IMG/VR virus record: IMGVR_UViG_3300034082_001172
Location: 1 to 24,289 of that record
DNA from: a virus
DNA length: 24,289 nt
Strand: one strand, 5' to 3'
How positions within the stretch are numbered: the first letter of the stretch is position 1; each line of letters begins with the position of its first letter. Below, piece after piece: positions 3,051 through 24,289 of the stretch. The notes beneath the pieces are model-generated. The model did no database searches and had not been told where the DNA came from. It saw only the letters and a program-made list of their open reading frames with translations. A program made the position numbers and the translations under genes.

Positions 3051-4088
3051 ATGAAAATAGCGGTCTACACAATCGCTAAGAACGAAGCAAAGCACGTCGC
3101 ACGATGGGCTGAGTCTTGTAAGGAAGCAGACTATCGGTTAATCCTTGACACAGGCTCAACGGATAATACATGTCAAATAGCGTGGGACTGTGATGTAACT
3201 GTAGAGACAGAAACGTTTGACCCGTGGCGGTTTGACCATGCTCGTAACGTCGCACTTACCTGCCTCCCAGATGACATAGACCTGTGTATCTCTTTAGACA
3301 TGGACGAAGTTCTAACCCCTGGCTGGCGTAAAGCATTAGAGAACTTATCCCCAGATATCAACATGGTTAGGCACAAGGTCGTCACCACATTCAACGCCGA
3401 TGGTTCAGAAGGACAATCATTCACCATCGGACGCATCCACGCCAGACACAGCCACACATGGAAATACCCAGTCCACGAAGTTCTCACACCAGTGGCATTA
3501 GAAAACTCTGTGTATATAGATGGTTTAGAAATCCACCATCATCCTGACAACAGCAAACCACGCACCCAATACTTGCCCATGTTGAAACTGGCAGCAGAAG
3601 AAAACCCCAACGATGAACGCCACCAGTTTTACCTAGCCCGTGAATACTTCTTCCACGGACGATATGCCCTAGCCCAACACCACTTCTCACGGCACCTCTC
3701 CATCGCACAATGGAACCCCGAACGAGCAGCATCACACCGTTACCTAGCACAGATGCGCCCCGAAGCAGCCGAACACCACCTATACAAAGCAGTAGCCGAA
3801 GACCCAACCCGCAGAGAAAACTGGGTGGCACTAGCCAAGGTCTACTACGAACGTAAAGACTGGACATCAACACGGGCATCCTGCGAGATGGCTTTCCGCA
3901 CCGCACAGAAACCAACCGACTATTTCTGCGAAGAAGAAGCATGGGGATATCTACCCTACGACCTTGCCGCCTTAGCCTGCTACCACCTTGGAGATACCGA
4001 CCAGGCATGGGCATACGGGGCTGAAGCCTTAGCGTTAAATCCAGGGGATGAACGACTTGAAGCCAACCTCACATGGTATCGGCTATGA
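3051..4088 (+). CDS. GT2-like glycosyltransferase with TPR-like C-terminus
   Basis: A 345-residue protein behind a strong AGGAGG ribosome binding site. The N-terminal GT-A fold is signalled by YTIAKNE (residues 6-12), DTGSTDNT (33-40), FDHARN (61-66) and the DxD-like metal motif LDMDE (82-86), as in family 2 glycosyltransferases that use nucleotide sugars. From about residue 190 the protein is helical with repeat-like segments such as YFFHGRYALAQHHFSRHL and VYYERKDWTSTRASCEMAF, resembling tetratricopeptide repeats. Its place inside the fibre and tail operon, just after Thr-rich collagen-like and glycine-rich adhesins, suggests that it decorates virion proteins; phage glycosyltransferases are also known to modify host surface polymers. 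Substrate and sugar cannot be read from sequence. Confidence 0.85.
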   Translation: MKIAVYTIAKNEAKHVARWAESCKEADYRLILDTGSTDNTCQIAWDCDVTVETETFDPWRFDHARNVALTCLPDDIDLCISLDMDEVLTPGWRKALENLSPDINMVRHKVVTTFNADGSEGQSFTIGRIHARHSHTWKYPVHEVLTPVALENSVYIDGLEIHHHPDNSKPRTQYLPMLKLAAEENPNDERHQFYLAREYFFHGRYALAQHHFSRHLSIAQWNPERAASHRYLAQMRPEAAEHHLYKAVAEDPTRRENWVALAKVYYERKDWTSTRASCEMAFRTAQKPTDYFCEEEAWGYLPYDLAALACYHLGDTDQAWAYGAEALALNPGDERLEANLTWYRL

Positions 4089-11327: not shown

Positions 11328-12275
11328 ATGAGTTTCACACGGTATCGCATACCAAAAGCACCACACGGTTCACAAGCATGGCTGAACCAACGCTACGAAG
11401 ATGACAACGGCAACCGCCGCATCTCCGCTAGTGCAGCAGCAGCCATCTACGGGCTACACCCGTTCGTGAAGCAAGACCAATACGCAGCAGAACTGCTGTC
11501 AGGAATTGCACCAACACCAATCCCACCAAACGCCGCTATGGAAACAGGCAACCGTTTAGAAGACACCATCATCCAGTGGGCAGGTGACCGCCTCGGCATC
11601 ACATTCACCACACCCGATGAACTGTTCTGCTATGACGATGAAGAAGGCGCACACCTTATCTCCACCCTTGATGGTTGGAACGAGGAGACACGCCACATCC
11701 TTGAAGTCAAAACAACCAGCCGTGAATACTCAGGAACCTTGCCTGACTATTGGAAAATCCAAGGCGTACAGCAAGCCATCTGTTCCGATGCAAGCCGTGT
11801 GACCTGGGCAATCTTTGACAACACCCTGCGCCTCACCATCGTGGAACAAAACGTCACCGAAGATGAGAAGCAAGAACACATCGCCGCCTCTGCTAAGTGG
11901 TTGAACAACATCGCACTGGGCATGGACCCCGAAGGCGTTGTCTACACATACGAAACAATCTCTACCCGCTACTCACGTTACAACGGCGACACAGTAGAAC
12001 TGAACCCATCCGCAACAGAACTCATTGCACAGTTAAAGCATGTTAAGTCCGAACTGTCCTCATACAAAGCAATGGAAGACAGGCTGAAGGCTGAACTGTG
12101 TGACTTGATTGGCGAGAACGAATCTGCCACAATCAACGGGGCAACAGTTGCCACATGGAAGGGATACAAGCGTGACTGGTTTGACTCCAAGAAGTTCCAG
12201 TCAGAGAACCCCGACCTATACGCACAGTACGTCAAGTCCACATCATCACGAACACTCCGTCTGAAAGGCGAATAA
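11328..12275 (+). CDS. YqaJ/lambda-exonuclease-type recombination nuclease
   Basis: A 315-residue protein with a strong ribosome binding site. Motifs of the YqaJ-like viral recombinase (PD-(D/E)XK) family are in order: SASAAAAIYG near 34-43, TGNRLED at 73-79 (Glu78), Asp115, LEVK at 125-128 (Glu126, Lys128) and YWKIQGVQQ at 141-149. These nucleases degrade one strand from a double-strand end and hand the single strand to an annealing protein, which is the next gene. After residue 220 it carries a helical segment (LIAQLKHVKSELSSYKAMEDRLKAEL) and a C-terminal domain that may mediate oligomer or partner contact. It is the first gene of the recombination unit. Confidence 0.88.
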   Translation: MSFTRYRIPKAPHGSQAWLNQRYEDDNGNRRISASAAAAIYGLHPFVKQDQYAAELLSGIAPTPIPPNAAMETGNRLEDTIIQWAGDRLGITFTTPDELFCYDDEEGAHLISTLDGWNEETRHILEVKTTSREYSGTLPDYWKIQGVQQAICSDASRVTWAIFDNTLRLTIVEQNVTEDEKQEHIAASAKWLNNIALGMDPEGVVYTYETISTRYSRYNGDTVELNPSATELIAQLKHVKSELSSYKAMEDRLKAELCDLIGENESATINGATVATWKGYKRDWFDSKKFQSENPDLYAQYVKSTSSRTLRLKGE

Positions 12276-12277
12276 CA

Positions 12278-12943
12278 ATGGAAACTTCTTACACATACAC
12301 AACACCAAGAAAGGTAACAACAGTGGAAGACAAAAATAAAACAGAGGAACTCAGGAACATCCTGAAGGACTACGCAAAGCCAGACCCATCAATCGTCCAG
12401 CAACTACCCAAGGGTGGCACCAAGTTGGACTTCGTTGGACACGCAGACATCACCCGCATCCTCATTGAGATTGACCCGTACTGGTCATGGGAACCCTGCG
12501 GTTGGGCACAAGGTCGTCCTGCTATCCATGTTGAGAACGGAACAGCAACCATGTGGGGATGGCTCACCGTACACGGCAAGGAACTCCTCGGTGTTGGCAG
12601 TGTCAAGGCTGACAAGGGAGACTACGAGAAGGAACTCATCGGTGACTTCTTGCGTAATGCTTCCATGCGTTTCGGTATCTCACTGAACCTGTGGACTAAG
12701 AACCAATGGGCTGACCTTGACAACGAGAAGACACAGCCAGCGAAGCCTGCACCTAAGCCAGCATTGCCTGACGATTCACCGTTGAGCGAAGAACAAATCA
12801 ATGCGTTCAACAAGGCATGTGTAGATAACGACTTGAACCCTATGACTATCTACAAGGACGCTAACGTGCGTTTCGGATTCGGTACACAGAAAGACCTGGC
12901 TGCTTTACGTAAGGCGTTCACTGCTGCAAAGGCAGGTAAGTAA
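12278..12943 (+). CDS. Rad52-like single-strand annealing protein
   Basis: A 221-residue protein directly after the exonuclease. The core reads KLDFVGHADITRILIEIDPYW (about 49-69), then a beta section, then EKELIGDFLRNASMRFGISLNLW (118-139). This is the arrangement found in actinophage proteins assigned to the Rad52/ERF-type annealing superfamily. A Lys/Pro linker (about 150-165) separates a C-terminal helical domain. With the YqaJ exonuclease it forms a Red-like pair for end recombination. The start at 12278 is supported by position; a GTG at 12323 has a better AGAAAGG site and would shorten it by 15 residues. Confidence 0.75.
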   Translation: METSYTYTTPRKVTTVEDKNKTEELRNILKDYAKPDPSIVQQLPKGGTKLDFVGHADITRILIEIDPYWSWEPCGWAQGRPAIHVENGTATMWGWLTVHGKELLGVGSVKADKGDYEKELIGDFLRNASMRFGISLNLWTKNQWADLDNEKTQPAKPAPKPALPDDSPLSEEQINAFNKACVDNDLNPMTIYKDANVRFGFGTQKDLAALRKAFTAAKAGK

Positions 12944-13131
12944 TGAGTGCGAAGCGAACAGTAGACCCAGATGGGGAGATTGCATCAACTCGTTTCATGG
13001 GGTTGCGTGTCACAACTAAGCAGTGGTACCACATTGAACTTCTCTGTCAGGTACGTGGCGGTATCACCAAGTCAGAACTGTTACGCCAGTTAGTGAAAGA
13101 GGCGATGGATAATGTCAAAGAGCCGTTCTAA
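12943..13131 (+). CDS. Ribbon-helix-helix-like small protein
   Basis: A 62-residue protein coupled to the annealing gene (TAATG). The segment TRFMGLRVTTKQWYHIELL followed by GGITKSELLRQLVKEAM matches a ribbon-helix-helix fold: a short strand then two helices. Such proteins are usually dimeric DNA-binding repressors. It lies inside the recombination operon, so autoregulation or control of the neighbouring genes is possible; no operator was identified. Confidence 0.65.
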   Translation: MSAKRTVDPDGEIASTRFMGLRVTTKQWYHIELLCQVRGGITKSELLRQLVKEAMDNVKEPF

Positions 13132-13447
13132 AGGAACATCATTTGAAACTCTCATTGCCCGCTTCATGCGTGACAACGGGTTCCCCTATGCAGAACGTCG
13201 TGCATTGCATGGCAATCTAGACAAGGGCGACATCAACTGTGGTGCGCCTCTCGTCATTGAATGTAAAGCAGCGAAACGACATGAACTGTCGGGATGGTTG
13301 CAGGAGACTGAGGCTGAGCGTGTCAATGCAGGGGCAGACTTCGGTGTGCTGGTTGTGAAACGTCAGGGTCATGCCACTGGTGCAGAGCAGTATGCCATCA
13401 TGCGTTTTGAGGACATGGTGAAGTTGTTGAAGCAGGCAGGTTACTGA
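13112..13447 (+). CDS. Holliday-junction-resolvase-like nuclease
   Basis: A 111-residue protein overlapping the RHH gene by 20 nt. The motifs KGTSFE (7-12), ERRALHGNLDKGDI (28-41) and IECK (49-52) give the PD-(D/E)XK core Glu12, Asp40, Glu50 and Lys52, as in archaeal-type Hjc and phage resolvase-like nucleases. It would cut branched recombination intermediates produced by the exonuclease/annealing pair. The length is close to the minimal family size. The stop overlaps the start of the broken repeat-family gene (TGATG). Confidence 0.8.
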   Translation: MSKSRSKGTSFETLIARFMRDNGFPYAERRALHGNLDKGDINCGAPLVIECKAAKRHELSGWLQETEAERVNAGADFGVLVVKRQGHATGAEQYAIMRFEDMVKLLKQAGY

Positions 13448-17334: not shown

Positions 17335-17509
17335 ACAATGGGAGTTCACCCGTTCACATCCTGACTGTACGCACTGTGGCACAATCCTAAGAGCCATCAC
17401 CGCATACGACCAGCGCACACACGACACCTGTCCATGTGTATGCCACAGAAACAAAACAACGCAGGCAAAGTACGACCTGCAACAAAACAAAAGAAAGAAA
17501 AAGAAGTGA
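17324..17509 (+). CDS. Zinc-finger miniprotein with lysine tail
   Basis: A 61-residue protein with a GTG start overlapping the previous gene by 11 nt. SHPDCTHCG (11-19) and CPCVCH (36-41) provide two metal half-sites, and the C-terminus is KRKKKK. A nucleic-acid-binding zinc finger fits. Its TGA overlaps the GTG of the WhiB gene (GTGA). Confidence 0.6.
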   Translation: MVTEQWEFTRSHPDCTHCGTILRAITAYDQRTHDTCPCVCHRNKTTQAKYDLQQNKRKKKK

Positions 17510-17778
17510 TACTAGACCGACCATCATGGCAACAACGAGCCGAATGTCGGGGCGTACCATACACGGTAATGTTCCCCGAAAATCCTGGCGGTCAAGACAG
17601 TGTGTATCGTGAAGCGTTGAAGTTCTGCAACCGATGTGCGGTACGTGATGAGTGTCTTGCGTTCGCTATGAAAGAGGAAAGTGGACAGCGTTGTAGGTAT
17701 GGAATGTTCGGCGGCAAGACCCCGAAGGAACGCTACGCATTAGCGGATGAGCAGATACCTGTCCGTATCAGGACATAA
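17506..17778 (+). CDS. whiB: WhiB-family iron-sulfur transcription factor
   Basis: A 90-residue protein. The four WhiB cysteines are present as C14, then CNRC (C41, C44) and C50, the CxxC-x5-C arrangement that binds a [4Fe-4S] cluster. The following GMFGGKTPKER (66-76) matches the G(V/I)WGG turn and basic DNA-contact segment. The trailing region is short. WhiB proteins occur in Actinobacteria and their phages and act with the primary sigma factor; phage versions can repress host whiB genes. The GTG at 17506 overlaps the zinc-finger gene; the frame to 17434 lacks WhiB features. It is the last gene before a terminator. Confidence 0.92.
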   Translation: MILDRPSWQQRAECRGVPYTVMFPENPGGQDSVYREALKFCNRCAVRDECLAFAMKEESGQRCRYGMFGGKTPKERYALADEQIPVRIRT

Positions 17779-17839: not shown

Positions 17840-18097
17840 TTATATAGAAACTATGGTGTAGTTACTTTCGTACTGCATCCATGTGGATTCAATCTCGTTG
17901 TTTACAGCGTCCCGACCACGGAAGATGGTAGCCCGTTCCTTGACGGTAGTCCAACGGTATCCATCTAGTTGCATACAGTAATACTGTTGCGACCTTGGGC
18001 TATTGCGAGCAATCACGTACCTTTTGGTGTGTCTCCTACGCACACGGGCAAGAGCAGACAGGTTGTTGCGTACCGTCAAGACAGGGGCAAACCTCAT
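17840..18097 (-). CDS. Unknown basic protein, end of leftward operon
   Basis: An 85-residue basic protein starting MRFAPVLTVRNNLSALARVR, with an Arg/Lys-rich helix, then YVIARNSPRSQQYYCMQLDG and WTTVKERATIFRGRDAVNNE. The second half looks like a short beta-sheet domain plus helix. The start overlaps the upstream stop (ATGA). No family recognised. Last gene of the leftward unit. Confidence 0.6.
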   Translation of the reverse strand: MRFAPVLTVRNNLSALARVRRRHTKRYVIARNSPRSQQYYCMQLDGYRWTTVKERATIFRGRDAVNNEIESTWMQYESNYTIVSI

Positions 18098-18366
18098 GAC
18101 ACGACCACCTCAGGTACAGACAAGTCCTCCTCATAGATAAGGTGCGTCACCATCCCTGTCACCTTCGTAGCAGTGATGTGCTTTACCTTGACCTGTGTGA
18201 TGCGGAACCGCCAGCACCCACGGTACTGTGCCTGCTCACGGGCGTACTCAATGAGGCACTCAGGGGTACGGTTCTGACGGGCAGACCTGCCATCCACTGT
18301 GACAATCTCGCTGTCATTCCATGCGAACTTGTCGGCGTGGTATTCAATCTCGTATGTCCCGTTCAT
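18094..18366 (-). CDS. Unknown leftward-operon protein
   Basis: A 90-residue protein, MNGTYEIEYHADKFAWNDSE at the start, predicted beta-rich with one helix (PECLIEYAREQAQYRGCW). The section RFRITQVKVKHITATKVTG is a beta hairpin. Overlaps both neighbours by 1-4 nt, so translation is coupled. Unknown function. Confidence 0.6.
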   Translation of the reverse strand: MNGTYEIEYHADKFAWNDSEIVTVDGRSARQNRTPECLIEYAREQAQYRGCWRFRITQVKVKHITATKVTGMVTHLIYEEDLSVPEVVVS

Positions 18367-18674
18367 TATTTACCTCCCAAGATTTGTGAGGCTAGTTCCC
18401 TGTATGCGTTGATGAGATTGTCATCCTGTGCCTTGACAGTTCCCTCTGCTACGCACACCCAACGGCTACCGTTAGTCTCCCCATTGTCCACTGCGTATGC
18501 ACTGACAGTTACCTTGTCGTCAATGTGGTACAGGTTTAAATCCCATCCGTCACTATGGTTCCATTCGTCATACTCTGCGTTGGTGTCTGTTGTGTTGGCT
18601 AGGTATCCCATTAGCCATAGTTGTGCTGACCGTACCGCCTTTGCTGATACGTCTTCTACTGTTAGTTGTTTCAT
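18366..18674 (-). CDS. Unknown leftward-operon protein
   Basis: A 102-residue protein. The ATG at 18674 follows an AGAAGGAGAAG site and is preferred over a longer frame starting at 18713. It has an N-terminal helix (VEDVSAKAVRSAQLWLMGYL), a Trp/Asp-rich middle (DEWNHSDGWDLNLYHIDDKV) and a helical end (NLINAYRELASQILGGK). The acidic character suggests a protein-binding role, but nothing identifies a target. Confidence 0.6.
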   Translation of the reverse strand: MKQLTVEDVSAKAVRSAQLWLMGYLANTTDTNAEYDEWNHSDGWDLNLYHIDDKVTVSAYAVDNGETNGSRWVCVAEGTVKAQDDNLINAYRELASQILGGK

Positions 18675-18805
18675 TGTTCTTCTCCTTCTGTTGGGTCTTG
18701 ATTGATGTAGCAAGTAGCGCAGTACCTACCACTGGCAAACGTGATGCCTGCCCCTGTTGGTGTCCACTCTCCGCAGACCACGCATTGTTTATCAGGTGTT
18801 TCCAT
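18671..18805 (-). CDS. Zinc-ribbon miniprotein
   Basis: A 44-residue protein with CVVC (8-11) and CATC (29-32) knuckles, a compact zinc ribbon. The ATG has a GAAAGGGAAAACAAC leader typical of this operon, and the stop overlaps the next start (ATGA). Similar in layout to the C-terminal half of the 19019 gene. Confidence 0.6.
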   Translation of the reverse strand: METPDKQCVVCGEWTPTGAGITFASGRYCATCYINQDPTEGEEQ

Positions 18806-18827
18806 TGTTGTTTTCCCTTTCTATGGA

Positions 18828-19022
18828 TTACTTCTGTACCGTACCACGGTTGTGGTTGTGATACAAATCTTTACGTTGTGACGGGTGTCTCTCATACGAG
18901 CCACGCCTATGGTCACGCTTGACATCTCGCCATGCCTCCCACAAAATCAGTAGGAAGATAGAACCGAACGCCATGCCCATCCACATTAGGGCGATATAAA
19001 TATGTTCATTGTTTGCGTTCAT
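18828..19022 (-). CDS. Single-span membrane protein with His/Arg-rich tail
   Basis: A 64-residue protein. A short polar start is followed by a hydrophobic helix (IALMWMGMAFGSIFLLILW, about 10-28) and a strongly basic, His-rich tail (VKRDHRRGSYERHPSQRKD and on). Topology predicts the tail in the cytoplasm. The start overlaps the previous stop (ATGA). An early membrane protein of this type could act in superinfection exclusion, but that is speculation. Confidence 0.6.
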   Translation of the reverse strand: MNANNEHIYIALMWMGMAFGSIFLLILWEAWRDVKRDHRRGSYERHPSQRKDLYHNHNRGTVQK

Positions 19023-19366
19023 TTTGTTTCCATTTCTTTATTAAACTCTGTAACGATTGTGTCTATTGTCTGCCAACAAGTGAGGCAGTATGAGTAATCC
19101 CACTTGTGAACCATACGGTTCAGGGTGTGAGGTTCACCACATACGTGGCACTCGTTCAAGATGATTCTTTCTGTTGTGTTCATTGCGCCACCTTCTTGTT
19201 TGATTCCGCAAGGCTTGACCCGTTGGGGTAGATAATGTCGTACCACCCGAAGTGTGGCGTAGTAGATACTCTGCCCCTGCTGGCGTAGAAGATAACGCCA
19301 CGCCTCGTTCTCTGTTCTGAATGTGGCGAGTGTTCGCCCGTCCCGTGTTACTTCGTATGTTTCCAT
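19019..19366 (-). CDS. Two-part protein: small alpha/beta domain fused to zinc ribbon
   Basis: A 115-residue frame. The ATG at 19366 has a GGGAAGA site; an upstream extension to 19426 is not supported. Residues 1-45 (METYEVTRDGRTLATFRTEN and a helix ending in YATLRVV) look like a compact alpha/beta unit. After a linker, CHVC and CLTC form a zinc ribbon. An internal ATG at 19183 has its own AAGAAGGTGG site and would make a 54-residue zinc protein like its neighbour at 18671. So this may be two genes joined by loss of a stop, or a fusion with internal start. Confidence 0.6.
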   Translation of the reverse strand: METYEVTRDGRTLATFRTENEAWRYLLRQQGQSIYYATLRVVRHYLPQRVKPCGIKQEGGAMNTTERIILNECHVCGEPHTLNRMVHKWDYSYCLTCWQTIDTIVTEFNKEMETK

Positions 19367-19382
19367 TTCTAATCTTCCCTTT

Positions 19383-19601
19383 CTATTTCTGTAACAATGC
19401 GATGATGAAATCACGGTGGGCTTCACGCTCTGCCCGTGGTGTGTCTAGTAGAATGTCAATCATTACCTTGACACCCTTTAGTGTTGGGTGGCTATGGTCG
19501 TCCTCTGTTGTGGCGAACCACACCTGACGACCTAGCGGTGTCCCTGCTGTTCCTTGTTCGTGCTTTACGATTACGTAACCACGGTATGTGTATGTAGCCA
19601 T
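19383..19601 (-). CDS. Unknown leftward-operon protein, first gene after promoter A
   Basis: A 72-residue protein, MATYTYRGYVIVKHEQGTAG at the start. The N-terminal half is beta-like with a VWFATTEDDHSHPTLKG loop, the C-terminal half helical (VMIDILLDTPRAEREAHRDF). A GAAGGGAAACATA leader precedes the ATG and is nearly identical to that of the 20294 gene. It is the first gene downstream of the promoter at 19632-19686. Confidence 0.65.
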   Translation of the reverse strand: MATYTYRGYVIVKHEQGTAGTPLGRQVWFATTEDDHSHPTLKGVKVMIDILLDTPRAEREAHRDFIIALLQK

Positions 19602-19637
19602 TATGTTTCCCTTCTGTTGGCTATGAGTAACACGGTA
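19602..19637 (-). repeat. Shared promoter-leader repeat (second copy 20507-20544)
   Basis: The leaders of the genes at 19383 and 20294 share CTATGAGTAACACGGTA plus CTGTTGG and a TTTCCCTT ribosome-binding block almost base for base, up to and including the first codons (MAT). The copies sit between a CRP-like promoter and the start codon in both cases. The genes downstream are unrelated, which points to duplication of a promoter-leader cassette. Confidence 0.75.
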
Positions 19638-19686
19638 CAGCCATTCCGTACCAGTGTCAAGTATTTATTTTGTGACATATGTTACA
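19632..19686 (-). promoter_or_regulatory. Leftward promoter A with CRP-like palindrome
   Basis: Reading leftward: palindrome TGTAACATATGTCACA (19671-19686), 10 nt, TTGACA (19655-19660), 17 nt, TACCGT (19632-19637). The palindrome fits TGTGA-N6-TCACA with one mismatch. If TACCGT is the -10, the palindrome centres near -53.5. It drives the 19383 gene and genes below it. Confidence 0.7.
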
Positions 19687-19699
19687 CTCACTAACTCAA

Positions 19700-19715
19700 T
19701 GTTTCACGTTAAACA
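19700..19715. promoter_or_regulatory. parS-like site 1 (one mismatch)
   Basis: TGTTTCACGTTAAACA differs at one base (G to T) from the bacterial chromosomal parS sequence TGTTTCACGTGAAACA bound by ParB. It lies between the stop of the 19754 gene and the palindrome of promoter A, in non-coding DNA. The pairing extends one AA outward on the left side. It could bind ParB or a phage regulator. Confidence 0.55.
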
Positions 19716-19753
19716 TCTACTTGTATAGAGCAACTATTATTTATAGGTTAGGC

Positions 19754-19945
19754 TCACCTGATATTCTTTACCGACCAGTGTGACACCCACACCGAACCAG
19801 TCCCCGACATTGGTGCTATGAGATAATCCGTATTCCCGAACCGTTCCCTAGCGTCGATGATTGCTACGGTGAAACTCACCCCGTCTATTTTGTTGTAGTC
19901 TGCAACCTTTCCGATTGCGCTCTGTAATTCTGTTGCCGTTCTCAT
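19754..19945 (-). CDS. Unknown leftward-operon protein
   Basis: A 63-residue protein with a GAGGGG ribosome binding site inside the end of the upstream gene. The N-terminus is helical (TATELQSAIGKVADYN), the rest beta-like (VSFTVAIIDARERFG, YLIAPMSGTGSVWVSHWSV). No family recognised. About 150 nt of regulatory DNA follow its stop. Confidence 0.6.
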   Translation of the reverse strand: MRTATELQSAIGKVADYNKIDGVSFTVAIIDARERFGNTDYLIAPMSGTGSVWVSHWSVKNIR

Positions 19946-19949
19946 TGGT

Positions 19950-20291
19950 TCACCCCTCTTGAATCTTGTGTAATGCTGTACGTGCCGACTTAAGGCTTGC
20001 GTACTGACCGAACTCTCCTACCGTGTCAATGCTCCCCGTACCATCCGCTAATCGGATTGTGTACTCACGTTGTCCATTGGTGGCGTAGTTGTTCATTTCG
20101 CTAGTGATGAAGTACCGACCTAAATGTAGGTCTTCATACACTTTGCTCTTGAAAAATCGCAGAGTGTCGGGGCTAAAGAAGTGATGCCCGATGTCCTCGT
20201 TGTGGCGTTTGATTTGCGTCACGCTGAGGTACTTGCCCCCATGCTCCGCTTTAGGTGCGTACACGCTTGTTCGTTCTGTTGTTGTTTCCAT
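19950..20291 (-). CDS. Unknown leftward-operon protein
   Basis: A 113-residue protein; the ATG at 20291 matches the METTTE/METYE/MATTTE starts of sister genes, so the longer frame to 20354 is not used. The middle (FFSPDTLRFFKSKVYEDLHL) is helical, followed by GRYFITSEMN and REYTIRLADG beta strands and a C-terminal helix (LKSARTALHKIQ). The KYLSVTQIKRHNEDIGHHFF stretch is His-rich. No known family. Confidence 0.6.
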   Translation of the reverse strand: METTTERTSVYAPKAEHGGKYLSVTQIKRHNEDIGHHFFSPDTLRFFKSKVYEDLHLGRYFITSEMNNYATNGQREYTIRLADGTGSIDTVGEFGQYASLKSARTALHKIQEG

Positions 20292-20293
20292 TT

Positions 20294-20506
20294 TTAGTAT
20301 TCCATTTCTTCGTAGTAATCTGTTTCTTGTCCGTAGAAAATACGGGCGGAGCATACCGTTCCCTTGTGGGTTTCTGCTCCTAGCATTTGGTAGGCGTAGC
20401 CTTGTGCGTTTGCCTGTAGTGAGAACGTAACGATTCGGATTATCTCCCCCTCCTCGTTGAACGTAACTACTTTGTAGTTGGTTGTCTGTTCTGTTGTTGT
20501 AGCCAT
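20294..20506 (-). CDS. Unknown leftward-operon protein, first gene after promoter B
   Basis: A 70-residue acidic protein (MATTTEQTTNYKVVTFNEEG). It resembles a small beta-alpha-beta unit: KVVTFNEEGEIIRIVTF strands, a helix ANAQGYAYQML, a strand SARIFYG, then an acidic tail. It has an AGAAAGGGAAAC leader shared with the 19383 gene. The N-terminal beta hairpin style also resembles residues 1-45 of the 19019 protein, so a common fold is possible. Confidence 0.6.
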   Translation of the reverse strand: MATTTEQTTNYKVVTFNEEGEIIRIVTFSLQANAQGYAYQMLGAETHKGTVCSARIFYGQETDYYEEMEY

Positions 20507-20538
20507 TTTAGTTTCCCTTTCTGTTGGCTATGAGTAAC

Positions 20539-20593
20539 ACGGTATCGTGTTGGTTGTTAGTTGTCAAGTATTTCTTCTGTGACTTTTGTCACA
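20539..20593 (-). promoter_or_regulatory. Leftward promoter B with perfect CRP-like palindrome
   Basis: Reading leftward: TGTGACAAAAGTCACA (20578-20593), 10 nt, TTGACA (20562-20567), 17 nt, TACCGT (20539-20544). The palindrome is a perfect TGTGA-N6-TCACA. It overlaps the 3' end of the 20557 gene, so the promoter is partly inside coding DNA. It would add transcription for the 20294 gene and beyond. Confidence 0.75.
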
Positions 20594-20829
20594 CTGTCGT
20601 AGTGGTATTTAGTTGTAGTAAATCGGCGTTGAAAAAATAGTTCCCATATTTTTCCGTTATCTGCCATGTGTTCTAGGTCACATTTACATTGGTGGCAGAT
20701 ATCTTCTAACAATTCTTCACCATTAGGCGTAGACCATTTAGGCGTAAACATATCGGTACGGTATGAGGCTCTATATTCGGGCGTATCCATATCGCAACGT
20801 GAACAGTATTTGTTGAGTGTTGTTAGCAT
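20557..20829 (-). CDS. CxxC-containing protein, possible zinc-binding
   Basis: A 90-residue protein; the ATG at 20829 overlaps the upstream stop (TAATG) and is preferred to the start at 20880. CSRC (about 9-12) and CHQCKC (about 46-51) give a split zinc site. The end (HYDSVTKVTEEILDN) is encoded by DNA that also carries the -35 and palindrome of promoter B. Unknown function. Confidence 0.6.
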   Translation of the reverse strand: MLTTLNKYCSRCDMDTPEYRASYRTDMFTPKWSTPNGEELLEDICHQCKCDLEHMADNGKIWELFFQRRFTTTKYHYDSVTKVTEEILDN

Positions 20830-21020
20830 TATTGTTCCCCAATTTCTTCGTGGCAGATATCGCAAGTCATATCGTGACATTCGTCACTAGCGAAGATAGG
20901 TTGTGGCATATCTCGTGTAGTTTGCGCATACCTAACGGTAGGCGTATGGTCTAGACAGTAAGCGGAACCATTAAAGGTATGTCCTAGCACTGTCCATGTT
21001 TTCATGTAGTAAGTAGTCAC
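20829..21020 (-). CDS. Cys/His-rich small protein
   Basis: A 63-residue protein with a GTG start preceded by AGAAAAAGGGAAAA. It contains YCLDHT, ECHDMTCDICHEE, giving a cluster of Cys and His near the C-terminus (CxxxxCxxC) that may hold zinc. The upstream 38-nt gap contains the perfect parS-like site. Unknown function. Confidence 0.6.
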   Translation of the reverse strand: MTTYYMKTWTVLGHTFNGSAYCLDHTPTVRYAQTTRDMPQPIFASDECHDMTCDICHEEIGEQ

Positions 21021-21040
21021 TATATTTTCCCTTTTTCTAA

Positions 21041-21056
21041 TGTTTCACGTGAAACA
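21041..21056. promoter_or_regulatory. Perfect parS-like site 2
   Basis: TGTTTCACGTGAAACA is identical to the canonical chromosomal parS of many bacteria, including Actinobacteria. The palindrome extends to 20 bp (21039-21058). It occupies the gap between the stop of the 21059 gene and the ribosome binding region of the 20829 gene. No promoter is visible beside it. Confidence 0.7.
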
Positions 21057-21058
21057 TT

Positions 21059-21256
21059 TTACCTTTCGTATTCTGTCCATGTCCATTCATCACACTGACT
21101 GCGTAGCCAGGTAGAACAAGTGGTGAATGGGTAGTCTTCTTCTGTTACGTGCCCGACAACTTTTGTATCGGTCACAATATCTGTCCATACGGACATTCTT
21201 TTGTTGGGTTGGTCACTATGCCAATTAGTGACTATGTAATGCCTGCCTTGTACCAT
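21059..21256 (-). CDS. First gene of the leftward operon, unknown
   Basis: A 65-residue protein (MVQGRHYIVTNWHSDQPNKR start). The ATG at 21256 has the operon's AAAGGGAAAACAAA leader; the longer frame from 21292 would start inside a parS-like palindrome and is rejected. Beta-rich N-terminus, KVVGHVTEEDYPFT loop and Trp-rich end (WLRSQCDEWTWTEYER). The first gene expressed from promoters C and D, so a likely immediate-early product. Confidence 0.65.
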   Translation of the reverse strand: MVQGRHYIVTNWHSDQPNKRMSVWTDIVTDTKVVGHVTEEDYPFTTCSTWLRSQCDEWTWTEYER

Positions 21257-21275
21257 TTTGTTTTCCCTTTCGTAA

Positions 21276-21291
21276 TGTTTCCCGTGAAACA
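21276..21291. promoter_or_regulatory. parS-like site 3 (one mismatch)
   Basis: TGTTTCCCGTGAAACA differs at one base from canonical parS. It lies in the transcribed leader between promoter C and the first leftward gene, around +16 to +31 if the assigned -10 is right. The pairing extends to 20 bp with one mismatch, so in RNA it could also fold as a hairpin. Confidence 0.55.
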
Positions 21292-21313: not shown

Positions 21314-21368
21314 ACTCTATCAAGCGTTGCACACTTTGTCAAGTATTTATTGTGTGACCTTTGTCACT
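21314..21368 (-). promoter_or_regulatory. Leftward promoter C with CRP-like palindrome
   Basis: Reading leftward: AGTGACAAAGGTCACA (21353-21368), 10 nt, TTGACA (21337-21342), 17 nt, TAGAGT (21314-21319). The same architecture as A and B; the -10 is a better match. Placed about 60 nt upstream of the first leftward gene. Confidence 0.75.
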
Positions 21369-21408: not shown

Positions 21409-21463
21409 ACACTACAGGAACCCGACCCACTTGTCAAGTCTTTTCTATGTGACTTCCGTCACA
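21409..21463 (-). promoter_or_regulatory. Leftward promoter D with perfect CRP-like palindrome
   Basis: Reading leftward: TGTGACGGAAGTCACA (21448-21463), 10 nt, TTGACA (21432-21437), 17 nt, TAGTGT (21409-21414). The outermost of four promoters, 95 nt upstream of promoter C, so C and D act in tandem on the whole leftward unit. Confidence 0.75.
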
Positions 21464-21547: not shown

Positions 21548-21563
21548 CGTGACTTCCGTCACA
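21548..21563. promoter_or_regulatory. Orphan CRP-like palindrome E
   Basis: CGTGACTTCCGTCACA repeats the core of palindrome D, including the same N4 (TTCC), exactly 100 bp away. No TTGACA follows at the 10-nt spacing on either strand. It may be an auxiliary site for looping or a remnant of a lost promoter. Confidence 0.55.
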
Positions 21564-23194: not shown

Positions 23195-24289
23195 ATGGGA
23201 ACAAAACGAACTGTATCCCCTGCGGATAAAGCCAAATTCTTTGCAGCCATCACTGCTGGACAAACAATCACCCAAGCATCTAGGACTGCTGGCATCCATG
23301 TTAATACTGGTTCCAAGTGGGTAGCGAAAGCAAAAGCAGCCGAGGCTCTCCGTAAAGAAACAGACGCTAAAGCAGCCAAGGTAAGACGCAACGAGGGTGG
23401 CGAGCAACGTGATGAATACAACGCCTTCATGGATGCAATTGATTTGCCATCTGCTGTACCTGACGACAGGCTATGCCCTGAAGCGCAACACGGCAAAGAA
23501 GACTTTGCTTTCTTCCGTGAGTATTACCTAGGACGTGTCCCATCCCCGTGGCAAGTAGAAGCCGCACTAGAACTAGTAAAACTTCTAGAGTCCGAAGAAA
23601 AAGAATTCGTTGTAGTGAACGTCCCCCCAGGTGCGGGCAAGTCCACCCTGTTCCACGATGTTGCTGTATGGGCGATTGTTCGTGACCGAAAAATCCGTAT
23701 CATGATTGGGTCTGTATCACAAAACATGGCGAAGTTGTACTCCCGCCGTATCCGTGAAACACTTGAACGTCCTATGCCTATCCAGCCAGACCCCCAACTG
23801 GTACGCAAAGGATTAGCACAAGACGCACAAGGATGCCTATCAATTGACTACGGCAGGTTCAAACCAACCGATAAAGGTGCATTGTGGCGAGCCGATGAGT
23901 TTGTAGTGGAACAACTAGATGGGAATGGACTTGACAACAAGGAACCGACTGTTCGTGCTTACGGTATTGAAGCAGAGTTCATCGGACATCGTGCCGACCT
24001 CTGCCTATTTGACGACGTGGCTTCACCTGATAACGCCCGTGAATCTGTCGCCAGAGATAAACTTCTTGAAAGATGGGACAACGTGGCAGAAGCACGTTGC
24101 GACCCAGGTGGGCTACTGGCGGTTGTTGGACAGCGCCTCGGACCAGGCGACCTATACGCACACTGTCTCTCCAAAGTTGCTTATGACTTGGATGATGAAG
24201 ATTATGACGGGTCGGACATAATCACACCTGAACAAGTGGAATCAATGGAACCATTGAAGTCACAAAAATACAAGCACATCATTTATCAG
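23195..24289 (+). CDS. Terminase large subunit, 3' partial
   Basis: The frame from ATG 23195 stays open to the window edge (365 codons visible). Residues 1-60 form a helix-turn-helix-like region (AITAGQTITQASRTAGIHVN and on), as expected for a fused or small-subunit-like DNA-recognition part. The ATPase follows: Walker A NVPPGAGKST near 145-154, the RIMIGSVSQNMAKLYSRRIR segment, Walker B DLCLFDDV near 273-280 and a coupling section ending LLAVVGQRLGPGDLYAH. The nuclease domain is beyond the edge. The sequence style is podovirus-like (T7-type PP-x-x-GKS). It powers DNA packaging into the prohead. No separate small subunit is seen, so the N-terminus may stand in for it. Confidence 0.9.
   Translation, partial: MGTKRTVSPADKAKFFAAITAGQTITQASRTAGIHVNTGSKWVAKAKAAEALRKETDAKAAKVRRNEGGEQRDEYNAFMDAIDLPSAVPDDRLCPEAQHGKEDFAFFREYYLGRVPSPWQVEAALELVKLLESEEKEFVVVNVPPGAGKSTLFHDVAVWAIVRDRKIRIMIGSVSQNMAKLYSRRIRETLERPMPIQPDPQLVRKGLAQDAQGCLSIDYGRFKPTDKGALWRADEFVVEQLDGNGLDNKEPTVRAYGIEAEFIGHRADLCLFDDVASPDNARESVARDKLLERWDNVAEARCDPGGLLAVVGQRLGPGDLYAHCLSKVAYDLDDEDYDGSDIITPEQVESMEPLKSQKYKHIIYQ

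Follow-up and report, generated by a model that had tools for sequence, protein, structure and literature searches.

The segregation protein ParB is the known reader of the parS 16-mer, and its recruitment by a phage is already known for phi29, a case for which Meijer et al. (2005) is reportedly the source. In PMC9437464, the DNA of this phage is described as being trapped in the spores of Bacillus subtilis by Spo0J, the ParB protein of this host. Phages borrowing LexA, CtrA or Spo0A likewise recruit a host DNA-binding protein via its recognition sequence (PMC9437464). Centromere sites of another kind are found in the cluster A mycobacteriophage RedRock, where each of two loci comprises an 8-bp motif repeated directly eight times (PMC7157519). 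No general report or survey of the use of host ParB by phages was found in the open-access literature searched. Here, three parS-type sites were characterized in the window, by which we mean the whole stretch of DNA analysed, a 24.3-kb virus record that is apparently a fragment of a tailed phage. As judged from sequence comparisons, these sites are very probably parS sites at which the ParB of the host would be loaded.

The phage fragment and its parS-type sites

Genes identified on the plus strand of the window include those for a RecE-like exonuclease, a single-strand annealing protein and a RusA-like resolvase (11328-13447), a WhiB-like regulator (17434-17778) and a probable large terminase (terL; 23195-24289), the latter being identified from its sequence and position and cut by the end of the record. 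An SSB gene is also present. On the minus strand is a leftward early block (18094-21256) made up of small genes without assigned function, one of which encodes a DUF7447 protein (19950-20354). The annealing protein and terL were the two anchors used for finding relatives, and relatives of 36-41 kb are present in IMG/VR. The WhiB-like gene points to a host that is apparently actinobacterial; when aligned with 84,980 genomes of bacteria and archaea, it gave only distant actinobacterial matches, with about 26-42% identity. Alignment of the terminase against the same genomes revealed no relative, neither host nor prophage, and a megablast comparison of the whole window with isolate phages gave no match. 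Identity with Streptomyces phages such as WRightOn is about 25% for the long tail protein. Two other products were recorded, namely a collagen-like protein with GPTGPTG repeats that is probably a tail fibre (249-1016) and, in the tail gene region, a TPR-repeat protein whose match to glycosyltransferase-2 was weak and under the cut-off (3051-4088).

The three sites are given without strand. The first (21041-21056; TGTTTCACGTGAAACA) is a perfect 16-bp palindrome with 0 mismatches to parS, located within the 38-bp gap that separates the leftward ORFs 20829-21020 and 21059-21256. It has no good promoter adjoining, and an equivalent site occurs at the same place in four relatives (L178, L179, L182 and L251). 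The second (21276-21291; TGTTTCCCGTGAAACA) has 1 mismatch and belongs to the 5' leader preceding the first gene of the leftward early block, where it covers approximately +16 to +31 relative to the predicted promoter 21342-21314; its counterparts in G008 and L181 are perfect and found at the same promoter. Its overlap with coding sequence is restricted to the first codons of a longer alternative ORF start, and a better start, the ATG at 21256 with GAAAGGG ahead of it, leaves the site in the leader. The third (19700-19715; TGTTTCACGTTAAACA), also with 1 mismatch, occupies the gap 19602-19753 and precedes the leftward promoter 19660-19632; its counterpart is perfect in L181 and has another single mismatch in G008. 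Since L181 is perfect at both single-mismatch positions, those of the window appear to be degenerate copies and not a distinct type.

When the whole window was scanned at up to 3 mismatches to TGTTTCACGTGAAACA, exactly three matches were obtained, a number reached in 0 of 100 dinucleotide shuffles, with 0.16 matches expected by chance. Each of them is the chromosomal-type parS sequence or a tolerated variant of it. The first-pass annotation, which had listed one perfect and two single-mismatch sites in non-coding gaps, was therefore accurate on both counts, the ORF check placing all three outside likely genes, in gaps or leaders of the leftward small-gene block (18094-21256). It had also noted that ParA and ParB genes are missing from the window, which agrees with the 0 matches to PF02195 and PF13614. 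The search for parAB that it had proposed beyond the window was run on the relatives: the ParB domain (PF02195) gave 0 matches in the family members searched and was also lacking in the relatives of 36-41 kb, the window record being a fragment; ParA (PF13614) was found in 0 of 11 records, and the same was true of the tyrosine integrase (PF00589) and serine recombinase (PF00239) domains. Control genomes in these searches behaved as expected. In the records searched, the phage family thus shows neither a parABS cassette of its own nor, in the 11 records, the recombinases of an integrating temperate phage.

Four leftward early promoters are predicted on the minus strand: 21314-21342 (TTGACA-17-TAGAGT, with TG before the second hexamer), 21409-21437 (TTGACA..TAGTGT), 20539-20567 and 19632-19660 (both TTGACA..TACCGT), the last being about 40 bp downstream, that is leftward, of the 19700 site. 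All four are preceded, directly upstream of their -35, by palindromes resembling TGTGA-N6-TCACA (19671-19686, 20578-20593, 21353-21368 and 21448-21463; 1 mismatch for the 21353 copy), and a further copy starts at 21548. The window contains 8 near matches to this motif, compared with 1.4 expected from Markov-simulated sequences (largest 7). A box on the plus strand (19743-19761; ATAGGTTAGGCTCACCTGA), 27 bp from the 19700 site, has 3 mismatches in the window and 2 in its G008 homologue, with 0.05 expected at up to 4. We take the palindromes to be CRP/GlxR-like and the box to be a DtxR/IdeR-like iron box, both names denoting a resemblance. A box of the latter type was also observed 27 bp from a parS-like site in L155 (16836-16854), and a 7-1-7 palindrome (TGAGAATNNTTCTCA), presumably Fur/Zur-like, is found directly beside parS in one sub-lineage (L205 at 8727, L210 at 197, L218 at 7571 and L229 at 8817). 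The presence of CRP-like and DtxR-like boxes at early promoters suggests a wiring to host regulators.

Such a wiring would agree with a regulatory role for host ParB, a reading that we consider unlikely, though not negligible, and according to which ParB would serve mainly as a transcription regulator, being loaded in early leaders, spreading over promoters and repressing leftward early transcription, perhaps in relation to the cell cycle or growth state. The window, G008 and L181 share the site that covers approximately +16 to +31 at the first predicted leftward promoter, family sites sit in gaps and leaders of the early block, and in Pseudomonas aeruginosa ParB represses genes beside the intergenic parS3/4 (PMC7022226). 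However, the spacing between site and promoter is not constant in the family, as illustrated by the 21041 site and by G003, L205 and L231; the sites of phi29-like and Arthrobacter phages fall within structural genes; and the loss of Spo0J in B. subtilis leaves the expression of parS-adjacent genes unaffected (PMC7022226).

Conservation and variation in the phage family

The exact 16-mer was found in six relatives identified by their annealing protein (G001, G003, G004, G008, G012 and G013), and wherever the record includes terL these copies are close to it, at the start of the early block. The scan of related phages that the earlier annotation had called for was extended to 80 terL relatives, about 10 lineages of which carry parS-type sites (TGTTYCACGTGRAACA or at most one base off). 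Family sites are nearly always located 1.2-3.7 kb upstream of terL, the exception within the loci read being a match with one mismatch, far inside the late region, in L205 and L210. In 829 kb of family sequence, 17 exact copies and 30 copies within one mismatch were counted, and 300 palindromes built from the shuffled half-site gave 0 exact copies and at most 1 near match in the same sequence. No other 16-bp perfect palindrome is as frequent in the family as the parS 16-mer.

That the matches would arise by chance or from host contamination is so improbable that it can be set aside. Host DNA is present to some extent in IMG/VR, and a small number of isolate records resemble metagenomic fragments (e.g., 'Listeria phage LM 4-11-1'), but the shuffle and scrambled-palindrome controls, the syntenic phage genes flanking the sites on both sides, and the occurrence of sites in complete isolate phage genomes all speak against it, the latter conservation refuting this explanation.

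The three window sites had been noted to extend past 16 bp, with AAT/ATT flanks, which left room for a phage repressor with a similar operator. The extended palindrome is real in the window clade, where it reaches 20 bp, but it was not retained elsewhere, the flanks being missing from G013, L205, L218, L229 and L252; in G013, the core is preceded by CAGAC and followed by ATAGA. As in chromosomal-type parS, the conserved unit is the 16-bp core and the flanks are variable, which is the opposite of the pattern that had been named as evidence against parS, with flanks kept and core lost. Operators read by a phage-encoded repressor or regulator recognizing the same palindrome are accordingly a highly unlikely explanation. 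In actinophages, it is usual to find operators repeated near early promoters, as with the stoperators of cluster A, and this, like the 20-bp palindrome, is in its favour. Yet the flanks are lost in other lineages, the variants follow parS, and the same 16-mer occurs in unrelated phages of Firmicutes, Actinobacteria and Alphaproteobacteria as well as in a filamentous phage. Furthermore, no early gene family convincingly tracks the presence of the site, and the early proteins tested had no confident DNA-binding match. Two candidates for such tracking, the 15704 protein (nuclease-like, named by eye) and the 18094 protein, were rejected, both being also present in the site-less G009, and the other leading candidates were window-edge effects. 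With no ParB in the family members searched and no early gene family convincingly following the site, a host protein is the simplest reader.

Variants observed in relatives include TGTTCCACGTGAAACA (L218) and the symmetric TGTTCCACGTGGAACA (L231 and L238). According to a review, several ParB proteins bind both half-sites GTTTCAC and GTTCCAC (PMC7022226), and the substitutions in family sites are in line with chromosomal parS variants. Where the record of a relative extends far enough upstream, the site is missing in about half of the cases; relatives without it include G009 and L198, where none was detected even at 2 mismatches; the site is therefore dispensable. On the terL tree, its presence changed 5-9 times. 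Taken together, these comparisons indicate that the sites are a maintained feature of the phage family, and what appears new is a conserved parS site in an actinophage family, with parS-like variation and repeated gain and loss.

Occurrence in other phages and in host genomes

Outside the family, the exact 16-mer was detected in at least 120 IMG/VR contigs, compared with 0, 1 and 31 for control palindromes. The control giving 31 contigs has the same CACGTG core as parS; the enrichment in IMG/VR is large and is itself a lower bound, the parS count being at least 120. The parS variant TGTTCCACGTGGAACA was likewise represented by numerous matches, at least among the matches listed. Of 146 exact sites, 40 (27%) lie inside ORFs of at least 150 aa, versus 67% of random positions. 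A ParB_N match over the curated cut-off was obtained for 3 of 50 site-bearing records, a set made up mostly of the longer ones.

Among isolate phages, a 33-mer containing the site matched 251 records, versus 16 for the scrambled control; the Flavobacterium phages in this search were discarded as flank artefacts because they also appeared with the control. Site-bearing isolates include phi29-like, Gordonia, Microbacterium, Lactobacillus and Enterococcus phages, and the 16-mer thus recurs in unrelated phages. Escherichia, Salmonella and Klebsiella phages were absent among the matches listed, and E. coli has neither a ParAB homologue nor a parS-like sequence (PMC8367383). Sites were present in 13 of 14 complete isolate genomes examined, these 13 having been picked for a prior 33-mer match; the fourteenth, Streptomyces phage WRightOn, which is among the nearest described relatives by tail protein, has none. 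ParB_N matches over the cut-off occurred in 2 of the 14. Gordonia phages PatrickStar and Luker each carry two perfect copies, 0.4-1 kb apart, and the Gordonia phage site examined lies between genes of the leftward block at the right end. In Bacillus phage vB_BcoS-136 (L350, MH884508.1), with a 160-kb genome and no ParB_N match, four perfect copies are grouped within about 1 kb. A case apart is Microbacterium phage KaiHaiDragon (L344) with its relatives: one perfect parS falls within a gene whose annotation is DNA-binding protein, and another ORF, of 297 aa, matches ParB_N, so that some phages may own both the site and its reader.

The filamentous bajarodino virus 3 (L348, PQ006097.1) carries six perfect parS 16-mers in a 6.2-kb record. 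Small phages with so many sites, together with the many phage copies of late infection, which could outnumber host parS, are what would be expected of decoys titrating ParB off the host sites and disturbing chromosome segregation or cell division. This role is nevertheless very unlikely for the sites described here, as most phages examined have one to three of them, and neither the placement in the early block nor the repeated gain and loss is predicted by it.

On the host side, 5 of 16 actinobacterial genomes tried had the 16-mer, exact matches being scored. Streptomyces and Nocardiopsis genomes have 5-9 exact copies clustered on one contig, although the host of the phage may differ, and most freshwater actinobacterial MAGs tried, which may be incomplete, had no exact 16-mer.

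Probable loading of host ParB and comparison with known systems

That the sites are parS for a ParB not encoded by the phage is well supported at the sequence level, based on a conserved core with variable flanks, parS-type substitutions, relatives devoid of ParB, and the occurrence of sites in isolates from ParABS hosts. The reading of the first-pass annotation is thus supported in part: its central proposal of parS sites is sustained by these same elements; its view that borrowing host parS would be unusual is not, the sites being widespread in phages and the phi29-Spo0J precedent being known.

The full explanation towards which we lean slightly is that parS would be kept for the early loading of a ParB-CTP clamp and for positioning with the host origin region. 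Early in infection, the host ParB-CTP clamp would load at the phage sites; ParB, followed by host ParA and possibly SMC, would position the phage genome with the host origin region, alongside which it would be shared out, for example when the infection is slow or stalled and no prophage is integrated. One of the sites immediately follows an early promoter, so that early transcription may in addition be weakened by the ParB loaded at this place. The sequence evidence fits both partition or positioning and transcription control, and early-promoter control is the main rival of positioning and segregation. Whether the latter is the main benefit is, in our estimate, evenly balanced; it is favoured because sites occupy very different places in other phages, structural genes included, and because phi29 DNA is trapped in spores through Spo0J (PMC9437464).

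In a wider perspective, borrowing a host centromere-binding protein via parS might be a common viral strategy that evolved repeatedly, a proposal whose chances appear equal either way. It would apply to tailed phages of Actinobacteria, Firmicutes and Alphaproteobacteria and to small single-stranded DNA phages, and phages having neither integrase nor partition genes would be positioned and inherited in non-sporulating hosts. If host ParB does load at these sites, many phages would plug into the segregation machinery through a 16-bp sequence alone. Carrier states or dormancy could then be reached in a simple way with no need for an integrase, such states could be predicted in metagenomes from a sequence tag, and phi29-Spo0J, so far a single case, would become one instance of a general, recurrent strategy. 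This would be directly testable in cultured Gordonia, Microbacterium, Arthrobacter and Bacillus phages. Also new here is the evidence that parS-type sites are common in phages.

Compared with phi29 as described in PMC9437464, the phage studied here shares the lack of its own partition genes and, presumably, the reliance on host ParB. The parS-type sites carried by its ParB-less genome have counterparts in the phi29-like phages Goe1 (two sites) and Chedec 11 (three sites). The two situations differ in that Spo0J brings phi29 DNA into the spore, with control by Spo0A, whereas the host here is probably a non-sporulating actinobacterium, and in that the sites occupy the early block, not structural genes as in phi29-like phages. 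With the chromosomal parS of ParABS systems, the phage sites have in common the same 16-bp palindrome, identical to the copies clustered on one contig in Streptomyces and Nocardiopsis, the same tolerated variants, and a clustered, mostly non-coding distribution; in contrast, they are carried by a phage, with no parAB nearby. Cluster A mycobacteriophages such as RedRock and phage-plasmids such as P1 also have centromere sites on phage DNA for extrachromosomal maintenance, but in their case both ParA and ParB are phage-encoded, and the sites are different ones. Finally, whereas LexA, CtrA and Spo0A are transcription factors, the protein that would be borrowed here, ParB, belongs to the segregation machinery, in which it acts as a sliding CTP clamp.
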